Positions 13,837-44,246 of a stretch of 64,000 bases of DNA are shown here, in pieces. How positions within the stretch are numbered: the first letter of the stretch is position 1; the number at the start of each line of letters is the position of its first letter. A program made the translations under genes and the position numbers. This DNA comes from Thermobispora bispora DSM 43833 (GTDB lineage Bacteria; Actinomycetota; Actinomycetes; Streptosporangiales; Streptosporangiaceae), in NCBI RefSeq assembly GCF_000092645.1, contig NC_014165.1, positions 3,844,001 through 3,908,000 on the forward strand. Reading direction: 5' to 3'. Under the pieces are notes generated by a model. That model worked only from the letters and a program-made list of their open reading frames with translations. It did not search any database and was not told the origin of the DNA.

Positions 13837-13872
13837 CGGAAGCCACTCTGACCAGCCGGTACGGCTCCGCGG

Positions 13873-13915
13873 AAAGAGAAAAGAGGCCTGGTCCGCACCG
13901 CGCGGTCCAGACCTC
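13873..13915 (-). terminator. Terminator of the downstream cold-shock gene
   Basis: On the minus strand, GAGGTCTGGACCGC pairs with GCGGACCAGGCCTC (two mismatches, GCGGT loop) and is followed by TTTTCTCTTT. It starts about 20 nt after the cold-shock stop codon and separates that gene from the groEL promoter. Confidence 0.8.
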
Positions 13916-13936
13916 GTGTTCACCTCGGACGGGGGA

Positions 13937-14137
13937 TCAAATGGTCCTCACGGCCTCCGCCTGCGGGCCCTTCCGGCCCTCGGTGATGTCGAACTCCACC
14001 CGCTGGCCCTGCTCGAGGGACTTGAAGCCGTCCATCAGGATCGCGGTGTAGTGCACGAACACGTCCTTACCACCGTCTACCGCGATGAAGCCGTAGCCCT
14101 TCTCCGCGTCGAACCATTTGACGGTGCCCTGCGCCAC
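13937..14137 (-). CDS. Cold-shock protein (CspA family)
   Basis: A 66-residue single cold-shock domain of standard length. RNP1 is [15 protein letters not shown] and RNP2 is VFVHYTAI, with a C-terminal [11 protein letters not shown] segment as in actinobacterial scoF/SC7.0-type proteins. It binds single-stranded nucleic acid as an RNA chaperone. The start is GTG 14137 with GAGGAG about 8 nt upstream. The position next to groEL and the metM-like gene is conserved in Streptomyces. It has its own terminator. Confidence 0.93.
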
Positions 14138-14367
14138 GTTATTACTCCTCTTGCCGTGCTGGAGACCATGACCATGACCATCGCCCCCAGTTTTTCGTCG
14201 ATCACGACGACCCTACCGGGAGAATGCGCAGGGCGACAGCATTCAATGGGCTGATTTCCGCAAGAAGTTCATCGGGCGCGGGATCCGGTGATTATCCATC
14301 CGCGCCCTAACGAGAATGATTTCTGGAACGCACCGTTTCCGGCCGCCGCCCCGGGGGAAACGAGGAA

Positions 14368-14400
14368 GGCCCGGCCGCCGGGACGGTGAGCGGCCGGGCC
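14368..14400 (-). terminator. Terminator of the metM-metO-like operon
   Basis: On the minus strand, an 11-bp perfect stem (GGCCCGGCCGC with GCGGCCGGGCC) and an 11-nt loop are followed by TTCCTCGTTTCC. It begins 13 nt after the carrier-protein stop. Between it and the cold-shock gene (14138-14367) I see no gene. Confidence 0.75.
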
Positions 14401-14413
14401 GTACGGCTCAGGT

Positions 14414-14692
14414 TCAGCAGCCCCCGGCGACGGCGGGGATCACCGACACCTGGACCCCGTCCGGCGTCGGGGTGTCGAGACCCTGCGCGAACCGGACGTC
14501 CTCCTCGCCCACGTAGACGTTGACGAACCGGCGGATCTTGCCGTTCTCATCCAGAATCCGGGCGCCGATCCCGGGGTAGTCGGCGTCGAGCTTCTGCAGC
14601 ACCTCACGGAGCGTCGCGCCTTCGCCCTGCACCTCGGCCGCCCCACCGGTGTACGACCGCAGAATGGTGGGAATCCGCACGGAAACGCTCAT
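14414..14692 (-). CDS. metO: MoaD/ThiS-family sulfur-carrier protein (probable MetO, CysO-like)
   Basis: A 92-residue beta-grasp sulfur carrier. The order SVRIPTILRSYTGG, LREVLQKLDADYPGI, RRFVNVYVGEEDVRF and VSVIPAVAGG is that of CysO and related carriers. In these, the C-terminal diglycine is adenylated and turned into a thiocarboxylate that donates sulfur. Here one extra Cys follows the diglycine (AVAGGC), so a protease cut or an altered end is needed. The gene starts 37 nt after the threonine-synthase-like gene, in the same riboswitch-controlled transcript. By analogy with Streptomyces MetM/MetO, it should supply sulfide for homocysteine synthesis. The direct evidence here is context only. 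Many databases call it simply MoaD/ThiS. Confidence 0.85.
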   Translation of the reverse strand: MSVSVRIPTILRSYTGGAAEVQGEGATLREVLQKLDADYPGIGARILDENGKIRRFVNVYVGEEDVRFAQGLDTPTPDGVQVSVIPAVAGGC

Positions 14693-14729
14693 CTCAACTC
14701 GCTTTCGTGTCCGATGTCCAACAGGCCGA

Positions 14730-15980
14730 TCAGTTGGCGAATGCCGTACGGAGCGCGTCGAGGGACGGGCGGATGACCGCCGTCGGGCGCGCCTGGCCGG
14801 CGACCACGTCGAGGGTCTTCAGCCCATCGCCCGTGTTCAGCACCACGGTCTCGGCGTCGGGGTCGAGCCGGCCGTCCCGGAGCAGCTTGCGCAGGACGCC
14901 GACGGTCACCCCGCCCGCCGTCTCGGCGAAGATGCCCTCGGTGCGCGCGAGCAGGCGGATCGCCTCGACCACCTCGTGATCATCGACGTCCTCCACCGCG
15001 CCCGAGGTGCGCCGGACCACGTCGAGCACGTACGGGCCGTCCGCCGGGTTCCCGATCGCGAGCGACTTGACGATCGTGTCCGGCTTGACCGGCTGCACCA
15101 CGTCGTGGCCCGCCTTGAACGCGCGGGCGACCGGCGCGCAGCCGGTGGCCTGGGCGCCGAAGACGCGGTACGGCTTGTCCTCGACCAGCCCGAGCTTGAT
15201 GAGCTCGCGGAACCCCTTGTCGATCTTGGTGAGCTGCGACCCGGACGCCACCGGGATCACGATCTGGTCGGGCAGCCGCCAGCCGAGCTGTTCGGCGATC
15301 TCATAGGCGAGCGTCTTCGACCCCTCGGCGTAGTAGGGCCGCAGGTTGACGTTGACGAAGCCCCACTTCTCCCCGAGCGGGTCGCCGAGCAGCTCCGAGC
15401 AGAGGCGGTTGACGTCGTCGTACGAGCCCTCGACCCCGACGATGCGGCCGCCGTACACCGCGGCCATGACGATCTTCGCGGCCTCGAGGTCCGCCGGGAT
15501 GAACACGCAGGAGTCCAGGCCGGCGCGGGTGGCCGCCGCCGCGACCGCACCGGCGAGGTTCCCGGTGGACGAGCAGGAGAGCGTGCGGAAGCCGAAGGCG
15601 CGCGCCGCCTCGACCGCGATCGCCACCACCCGGTCCTTGAACGAATGGGTGGGGTTGCCGGAGTCGTCCTTCACATACAGCGAGCGGAGCCCGAGTTCGG
15701 CGGCGAGCCTGTCCGCCTTGACCAGCTTCGTCCAGCCAGGAGCGAGATTGGGCTTCTCAGCGACGTCCGGCGGCACCGGGAGGAGCGCGCGATACCGCCA
15801 GATGTTCGGAGGCCCGGAGACGATCTCCTCGCGGCTGATCTCACCGAAGTCATAGGCGACCTCGAGCGGCCCGAAACACTGCGAGCAGGCGAAGATCGGT
15901 CCTAGCTTCTCGAGGGCACCGCATTCACGACACGACAGGCCGATGGCACGGCCGAACTCACGGGTTTCGACATGCACCAT
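14730..15980 (-). CDS. metM: Threonine-synthase-family PLP enzyme (annotated thrC; probable MetM homocysteine synthase)
   Basis: A 416-residue fold-type II PLP enzyme. The N-terminal CRECG and CSQC form a rubredoxin-like four-cysteine knuckle. The Schiff-base lysine is in NPTHSFKDR near residue 112. The phosphate-binding loop is SSTGNLAGAVAA, and the segments VASGSQLTKI and AIGNPADG are standard for threonine synthases. Threonine synthase converts O-phosphohomoserine to threonine. In Streptomyces the MetM branch instead uses O-phosphohomoserine and a thiocarboxylated carrier to make homocysteine. A SAM-I riboswitch directly upstream and a sulfur-carrier gene directly downstream favour the MetM role here. 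A genuine thrC beside hom and thrB elsewhere in the genome would support this. Plain threonine synthase remains the alternative. Confidence 0.85.
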   Translation of the reverse strand: MVHVETREFGRAIGLSCRECGALEKLGPIFACSQCFGPLEVAYDFGEISREEIVSGPPNIWRYRALLPVPPDVAEKPNLAPGWTKLVKADRLAAELGLRSLYVKDDSGNPTHSFKDRVVAIAVEAARAFGFRTLSCSSTGNLAGAVAAAATRAGLDSCVFIPADLEAAKIVMAAVYGGRIVGVEGSYDDVNRLCSELLGDPLGEKWGFVNVNLRPYYAEGSKTLAYEIAEQLGWRLPDQIVIPVASGSQLTKIDKGFRELIKLGLVEDKPYRVFGAQATGCAPVARAFKAGHDVVQPVKPDTIVKSLAIGNPADGPYVLDVVRRTSGAVEDVDDHEVVEAIRLLARTEGIFAETAGGVTVGVLRKLLRDGRLDPDAETVVLNTGDGLKTLDVVAGQARPTAVIRPSLDALRTAFAN

Positions 15981-15997
15981 GAAGGCGAGGCCTTTCC

Positions 15998-16133
15998 CTC
16001 ATCTTCACTCCCGACCACCTTGGCCGGGAGCCGGAATTGGCACCTGTCCCGGCCGGCCTCGCGGATACGAGCACAGTCACCGGGAGGGTTGCCGGGGCTT
16101 CACAGGGCCGGTCCCTCCACCCCTCTTGATGAG
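15998..16133 (-). ncRNA. SAM-I (S-box) riboswitch
   Basis: The minus strand carries all core S-box elements in order. They are CTCATCAAGAGGGGTGGAGG, then GACCGGCCC, TGAAGCCCCGGCAACC, a variable P3 arm, GGTGCCAATTCCGGC, the P4 stem, and GTGAAGATGAG. P1 is CTCATC (16133-16128) paired with GATGAG (16003-15998). The SD-like GGAAAGG follows P1 directly, about 10 nt before the ATG at 15980. It can also fold into a 5-bp hairpin (AAGGC-CTC-GCCTT). This suggests control of translation rather than termination. When SAM is abundant, P1 forms and expression of the downstream genes should fall. Confidence 0.93.
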
Positions 16134-16317
16134 CGATGTTCAATTGTCGATCACATGTCCGCCCGGCGGACGGCCTGCGGCGCCAGGCCGCGATCGCGCC
16201 GCGGAAAATCCCGCCCGGGCGGTGTGCCACACGGCGAAATCCGTGTCACACCTCAAGCACTGTACCCTTTCATCCCGCGATTTCGAGATGGCGTCTCATG
16301 ATGTGAGAAATGCCGTC
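16134..16317. other. Intergenic region between riboswitch and ECF sigma gene
   Basis: This 184-nt stretch must hold the promoter for the riboswitch transcript. A weak minus-strand -10 candidate, GACAAT, lies about 10 nt before P1, without a convincing -35. No gene is supported. Confidence 0.35.
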
Positions 16318-16869
16318 TCAGCGGTAGGCCTCCCCGAGCACGCTCTGCACGTACTTGCGGGCCTGATGGATGCGGGATTTGGCCGTGCCGATCGGGATGC
16401 CGAGCTGCTCGGCCACCTCCGCGTAGTCGAGCTCGCAGATGTCCCGCAGCACCAGCGCCTGGGCGAGCTCCGGCTTCTCCGCCTCGAGCGCCTCCATCGC
16501 GTCGAGCAGGTCGAGCCGGGAGCCGGCGATCACGCTCACCCGCCGCGGGTCCGGGCGCTGCTCGGGCAGCTCCTCGGCCTGCTCGGAGGAGCGCCGCTTC
16601 AAATTCCGGTAAGTCGTCCGCGCGCAGTTCGCGGTCACGATGTGCAGCCAGGTGCTGAACTTCGCCCGGCCCTCGAACCGCGAGATGTTCCGGGCGACGG
16701 CGAGCAGCGTGTCCTGCGCCGCCTCCTCCGCGTCCTGCCGGTACGGCAGCAGCCGCTCGCAGTGCCGTAGCACGTCGGGCTCGATCCGGCGGAGCAGCTC
16801 TCCGAGCGCCCGATGGTCGCCTTGAGCGGCCGAGCGCGCCAGAGCCTCGGTCGTCTCGTCCAGTGACAT
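16318..16869 (-). CDS. ECF-type RNA polymerase sigma factor
   Basis: A 183-residue group 4 sigma factor. Region 2 (residues 25-90) contains LLPYRQDAEEAAQDTLLAVA and FSTWLHIVTANCARTTYR (core binding and -10 recognition). A variable linker (SSEQAEELPEQRPDPRRV) follows. Region 4 (residues 125-180) has ALVLRDICELDYAEVAEQL and the helix-turn-helix GIPIGTAKSRIHQARK. No anti-sigma factor is adjacent. The next gene is divergent otsA, with a 96-nt shared upstream region. The trigger and regulon are unknown. The minus-strand GGAAGATT upstream could be an ECF -35 element, but its -10 is unclear. Confidence 0.9.
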   Translation of the reverse strand: MSLDETTEALARSAAQGDHRALGELLRRIEPDVLRHCERLLPYRQDAEEAAQDTLLAVARNISRFEGRAKFSTWLHIVTANCARTTYRNLKRRSSEQAEELPEQRPDPRRVSVIAGSRLDLLDAMEALEAEKPELAQALVLRDICELDYAEVAEQLGIPIGTAKSRIHQARKYVQSVLGEAYR

Positions 16870-39060: not shown

Positions 39061-39180
39061 GTTGCGGCGACGACCTACTCTCCCACACCCTCCCGGGTAC
39101 AGTACCATCGGCGCTGGAAGGCTTAACTTCCGGGTTCGGAATGTGACCGGGTGTTTCCCTTCCGCTATGGCCACCGCAAC
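39061..39180 (-). rRNA. rrf: 5S ribosomal RNA
   Basis: A 120-nt minus-strand gene from GTTGCGGTGGCCATAGCGG to GTCGTCGCCGCAAC. The ends pair as helix I. Internal hallmarks are CCCGGTCACATTCCGAACCC, GGAAGTTAAGCC and CAGCGCCGATGGTACTG. Confidence 0.95.
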
Positions 39181-39320
39181 GTCTTGTGTCAGTCAACCGG
39201 TCACCCCGGTCATCCGGCGCCGACGGCGTGATACGACATCGCCGGATCACGCTCGTTGGTCGCCGACCGGAGTGCGACGGCCTCCCGATCAGGGATCCGC
39301 TCGGTTGCTGATCGAGAATC

Positions 39321-39334
39321 GCATAGTGGGTGCG
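39321..39334 (-). other. 23S RNase III processing stem, 3' arm
   Basis: CGCACCCACTATGC on the minus strand is perfectly complementary to the 5' flank of 23S at 42393-42406. A further GAAT/ATTC pairing lies beyond. Confidence 0.8.
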
Positions 39335-39342
39335 TGCATGTG

Positions 39343-42382
<3,040 letters not shown>

Positions 42383-42392
42383 ACACGATGCT

Positions 42393-42406
42393 CGCACCCA
42401 CTATGC
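42393..42406 (-). other. 23S RNase III processing stem, 5' arm
   Basis: GCATAGTGGGTGCG on the minus strand pairs with 39321-39334, closing the pre-23S loop. Confidence 0.8.
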
Positions 42407-42493
42407 AATTCACAATCAGCAACCAGGTCACGGACCTGGCGGATTCCGGTCACTCACTTTACCGTTAAGTGAGCCCACCGGCAAACCGGCCCG

Positions 42494-42519
42494 TTCCCTC
42501 AAAACCCGACAGTGTGCCC
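42494..42519 (-). other. 16S RNase III processing stem, 3' arm
   Basis: On the minus strand, GGGCACACTGTCGGGTTTTG plus AGGGAA pairs with the leader arm at 44398-44421. It has a 10-bp perfect core, CACACTGTCG/CGACAGTGTG, extended with G-U pairs. Confidence 0.75.
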
Positions 42520-42697
42520 GACCAGACCACAAACCCCGAAACCGGCTTCCCCACCAGCGGCGGCCGCATAACGACCGCCACAGAAAGTGGTCATCACCAG
42601 CCCAGGCTCGTGTGCCCGGCCGACTAACCAGCGCTCCACATTCACCCACAAACTCAGCCCCAAGGAACTTTTCCAAACCAGGGGCTTAAGGGGTGCA

Positions 42698-44246
<1,549 letters not shown>

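Follow-up and report, generated by a model that had tools for sequence, protein, structure and literature searches.

A SAM-I riboswitch-linked metM-metO operon, annotated as threonine synthase, probably makes homocysteine in Thermobispora bispora

We analyzed a ThrC-like gene of Thermobispora bispora DSM 43833 that follows a SAM-I riboswitch and precedes a sulfur carrier gene, and conclude from sequence comparison that the two genes very probably form a metM-metO operon making homocysteine under SAM-I control, with threonine supplied by a ThrC encoded elsewhere. The first-pass annotation had read the locus as a methionine operon hidden under a threonine synthase name, and comparative genomics supports this reading through a separate thrC, the lack of MetA and of any credible MetX, the clade of the enzyme and its SAM-I linkage. 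The MetM/MetO homocysteine pathway of Streptomyces albulus was reportedly described by Hasebe et al. in 2024 (doi 10.1128/aem.01247-24), and T. bispora is a further member of this already published pathway. Less documented in the accessible literature are its breadth in Actinomycetes, the near-invariant riboswitch linkage, a bistable element combining P1 and the ribosome site, and a GG-Cys carrier tail; specialist interest lies in the breadth, the near-constant linkage, the carrier tail and the residue changes in the enzyme.

The genome is a single contig of 4,189,976 bp (4.19 Mb), of which the window, the whole 64,000-nt stretch analyzed, covers positions 3,844,001-3,908,000; the coordinates below are those of the window. 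The aptamer (15996-16135, minus strand) matches Rfam RF00162 at 77.8 bits against a gathering threshold of 44.4 (E 1.4e-16), and its P1 strands (16133-16128 and 16003-15998) end exactly at the limits originally proposed for a SAM-I element, 15998 and 16133. It lies, as first claimed, just before a ThrC-like gene, at a distance that we measure as 17 nt from the end of P1 to the ATG at 15980 and not the 18 nt given earlier. This gene, metM (14730-15980, minus strand), encodes a PLP enzyme of 416 aa, and 37 nt past its stop begins metO (14692-14414, minus strand), the ThiS/MoaD-type carrier gene already recognized on first reading, whose 92-aa product ends in AVAGG-Cys (...AVAGGC). Co-transcription is supported by the 37-nt gap and the conserved gene pairing; no terminator-like site was found between metM and metO, and the search of 13850-16400 found no promoter-like or terminator-like consensus, a negative result that does not by itself establish a shared transcript. 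A sigma-factor-like gene on the same strand just upstream of the riboswitch (16318-16869) has a counterpart in no more than 16 of 80 relatives and therefore falls outside the conserved unit. Downstream, a cold-shock gene is present in 73 and groEL in 74 of the 80 named loci. The window also carries an rRNA operon (16S, 23S, 5S) on the minus strand at 39062-44246.

The riboswitch linkage was assessed at two depths. One scan yielded 80 loci from named relatives, 74-85% identical and drawn largely from Streptomyces and Streptosporangiaceae, the nearest being Streptosporangiaceae such as Microbispora; a class-wide draw of 118 genomes gave a MetM-type match (E < 1e-100) in 88, about three quarters, and 87 of these loci were read. 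With a model built from 13 leaders, the aptamer was found upstream of the gene in 80/80 named relatives and at all 87 sampled loci, a recurrence that excludes chance. Because this model was trained on leaders of the MetM clade it favors near neighbors; the Rfam model, used as an independent check, recovered the aptamer in 12/12. Two of the sampled loci are weak, with two weak matches each before one MetM gene (L186:510-862 and L191:2153-2468, family f15), which suggests tandem or split SAM-I elements. Elsewhere, the clade-trained model found no SAM-I element at the canonical thrC (L003), cysO-cysM (L022) or CBS-CGL (L023) loci of T. bispora, nor at three divergent ThrC-like loci (L196-L198), and RF00162 has a single match in the whole T. 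bispora genome, the aptamer before metM.

Folding, anti-SD pairing and conservation point to a putative switching element at 15981-16006 (minus strand), comprising the P1 3' strand, a purine tract and an alternative hairpin. The best anti-SD match (15997-15991) starts at the base adjoining the P1 3' strand, and the leader has two near-equal folds, with and without P1 (-80.3 and -80.5 kcal/mol). In the fold lacking P1, the purine tract occupies the loop of the hairpin GAAG.UGAGG-GAAAGG-CCUCG.CUUC immediately 5' of the ATG; in other families, the tract runs straight on from P1. The hairpin is not universal among relatives, and its count of 49 rows versus about 10 expected by shuffling is indicative only, the sequences being related and some rows mis-parsed where the start codon also reads AUGA. 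Covariation offers no test of P1, which hardly varies. Control by transcription termination was set aside, there being no terminator-like site in the region. Barrick and Breaker (PMC2258182) report translational control to be frequent in Actinobacteria and, for SAM-I, place the ribosome-binding site in the 3' side of P1; both the bistable arrangement in T. bispora and the tract continuing P1 elsewhere fit such control. When SAM is plentiful, P1 would be stabilized, drawing a portion of the purine-rich ribosome-binding site into its helix and blocking translation; when SAM is scarce, the alternative hairpin would replace P1, presenting the tract in its loop and leaving the start codon free.

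The threonine synthase label is what normal annotation should give, as had been anticipated, since MetM scores 280.9 bits with TIGR00260 against a cut-off of 167.1. This NCBIfam model, however, fails to split MetM from ThrC, which a quick, midpoint-rooted tree resolves into separate groups of 96 and 16 rows (SH-aLRT 100 each). Tree placement had been recommended as a check, and it puts the T. bispora protein in the MetM clade with Streptomyces orthologues (74-79% identity), outside canonical ThrC. The protein thus appears to be a MetM orthologue, its tie to S. albulus MetM being indirect, through the Streptomyces sequences. Eight divergent zinc-ribbon ThrC-like rows (L196-L198 and L214-L218, 34-40% identical to MetM) group together in the same tree with weak support. 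The PLP lysine is kept (K115 in SFKDR, equivalent to K61 of Thermus thermophilus), and an N-terminal C17-C20-C32-C35 motif is present. At ThrC positions T88, S155, R160 and N188 (T. thermophilus numbering), which we take to serve phosphate and water handling, MetM has L142, N212, Y217 and S246, and the same L, N, Y and S occur in 99-100% of the 96 MetM rows. Of the marks of a canonical ThrC, the T. bispora protein therefore shows the TIGR00260 match and neither the clade nor the four residues; of those of a MetM/MetO system, the locus shows an orthologous enzyme, an adjacent Gly-Gly carrier with one extra Cys and an upstream SAM-I element, in a genome with no homoserine-acylation route.

Genome context was drawn from single-family searches and short stretches. 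A second thrC beside hom and thrB had been named as a decisive expectation, and a lysA-hom-thrC-thrB region of 13 kb indeed holds hom, homoserine kinase, lysA and a canonical ThrC (358 aa, TIGR00260 308.4 bits), so that the riboswitch-linked gene is not the sole threonine synthase candidate. Unrelated genes separate hom from thrC; polysaccharide-deacetylase-like and glycosyltransferase-like genes, named by eye, lie between them (L021:3419-8744). It could still be argued that MetM is a second true threonine synthase, answering to SAM because O-phosphohomoserine is a precursor for which threonine and methionine compete; the TIGR00260 score above cut-off agrees with this, as does a homologue from a cyanobacterium that shares 51.6% identity with MetM and acted in vitro as a threonine synthase and deaminase (PMC12172450). 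We consider this very unlikely: a canonical thrC is already present, the ThrC residues are replaced and the clade is separate, the carrier gene is linked at most loci, the genome otherwise has no acyl-homoserine route, and repressing a threonine synthase with SAM would divert still more O-phosphohomoserine from threonine while methionine is already abundant.

The expected absence of metX was borne out, the genome holding only a 60-residue MetX fragment at 23.8 bits, and the search for MetA returned no matches. As to the companion expectation, that metB and metY would be missing, the genome has a single strong PF01053 enzyme, and it adjoins cystathionine beta-synthase. Its best NCBIfam match is cystathionine gamma-synthase PRK07811 (674.7 bits), and its close solved relatives bear both gamma-lyase and gamma-synthase names. 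Plant cystathionine gamma-synthase takes O-phosphohomoserine as substrate, and the PF01053 protein could likewise, with an unseen beta-lyase, be the main source of homocysteine, leaving MetM-MetO auxiliary or devoted to another sulfur compound. Its score and the mixed names of its relatives speak for such a role, to which we nevertheless assign little probability, since its position beside cystathionine beta-synthase forms the usual reverse-transsulfuration pair, metM carries the genome's sole SAM-I switch, and genomes with MetM but without MetX are common. In the class-wide sample, MetX exceeds 300 bits in 65/118 genomes by the same kind of search; the curated TIGR01392 cut-off of 500 bits was passed by no control genome, and matches were therefore judged by E-value and bit score. 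Full-length MetX occurs in 39/88 genomes with MetM versus 26/30 without it (Fisher p = 4e-5, uncorrected for relatedness and hence overstating the evidence); many genomes carry both routes.

Against the MetM-MetO homocysteine operon count the NCBIfam threonine synthase name, MetX in 39/88 MetM genomes, the 23/87 loci with no nearby carrier, the gamma-synthase score of the PF01053 protein, the in vitro activity of the cyanobacterial homologue and, for the switch, the patchy occurrence of the alternative hairpin and the invariance of P1. The operon would supply the missing methionine step in a genome lacking the acyl-homoserine route. MoeZ (727 bits) would thiocarboxylate MetO at its Gly-Gly end, and hom and thrB would provide O-phosphohomoserine, from which MetM would eliminate phosphate to leave a PLP-bound vinylglycine. 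Attack of the MetO thiocarboxylate on the gamma carbon would then yield homocysteine, probably by way of a carrier adduct that is subsequently cleaved, by analogy with CysM/CysO/Mec. Homocysteine would be methylated to methionine by the cobalamin-type MetH or the MmuM-like homocysteine methyltransferase, both present and named from sequence, while threonine would come from the canonical ThrC. Mec, CysO and CysM are encoded as well, and on the model of CysO in M. tuberculosis (PMC3227635), MoeZ and the JAMM protease could serve MetO in activation and release.

The carrier gene is adjacent downstream in 79/80 named and 64/87 sampled loci. Among the remaining 23, which lack a carrier in the downstream stretch examined, one ends at a contig edge; MetM and riboswitch stand without a carrier within about 0.8-1.5 kb downstream at L132, L134, L139, L140, L142-L144, L152 and L155, and likewise at L178, L182-L184, L186-L191 and L193-L195. 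At such loci MetM may draw on CysO or on a carrier encoded farther away. MetO tails mostly end in GG, with GG-Cys in about a quarter (20/79 named and 14/64 sampled loci). At every named locus with this tail, TGC encodes the extra Cys and TGA follows; a triplet slip of GGC-TGA would produce this arrangement, so the tail may have arisen neutrally. Thiocarboxylation requires an exposed Gly-Gly, so GG-Cys carriers, if they work, need trimming. The two T. bispora carriers are 63% identical and both run past Gly-Gly, MetO by Cys and CysO (L022:2733-3011) by Ala-Arg, and the one JAMM protease gene found in the genome lies in the mec-cysO-cysM cluster. In M. tuberculosis the adduct of CysO and cysteine is cut by Mec (PMC3227635), and the likeness of a GG-Cys end to this adduct makes such an end, hypothetically, a candidate Mec substrate. 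Tentatively, and with rather less than even confidence, we propose that MetM with SAM-I is a common Actinomycetes homocysteine route annotated as threonine synthase, and that the GG-Cys proform, here and elsewhere, is trimmed by a single Mec shared with CysO, coupling cysteine and methionine synthesis. Sharing of an activating enzyme and a protease between the two carrier-based pathways thereby becomes testable, and the ThrC-like clade with SAM-I at all 87 read loci offers a straightforward criterion by which many genes now called threonine synthase could be re-annotated.

Among known systems, S. albulus MetM/MetO is the closest, sharing the ThrC-like enzyme, the carrier gene and the upstream SAM riboswitch, in keeping with the lack of a homoserine-acylation route in T. 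bispora; T. bispora belongs to another Actinomycetes family, and its MetO ends in GG-Cys. S. albulus metM is reported to be preceded by a SAM riboswitch, to be accompanied by metO and to prevent methionine auxotrophy (PMC12172450). Canonical threonine synthase (TIGR00260; T. thermophilus 1uim) resembles MetM in fold by sequence, PLP lysine and presumably substrate, whereas T. bispora MetM differs in its separate clade, the replacement of T88/S155/R160/N188, the extra N-terminal four-Cys motif, the riboswitch and the carrier gene. The Wolinella HcyS/HcyD/HcyF-MetY protein-thiocarboxylate pathway also delivers homocysteine sulfur on a carrier, one that likewise has a residue after GG, but it employs a PF01053-type MetY and acylated homoserine. 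M. tuberculosis CysM/CysO/Mec/MoeZ (PMC3227635) shares the carrier fold, MoeZ-type activation and a fold-type II PLP enzyme whose substrate is an O-phospho amino acid, and differs in making cysteine from O-phosphoserine with a CysK/CysM-type enzyme; the T. bispora cysO-cysM locus, in which a SAM riboswitch was searched for and none found, is in this respect unlike metM-metO.
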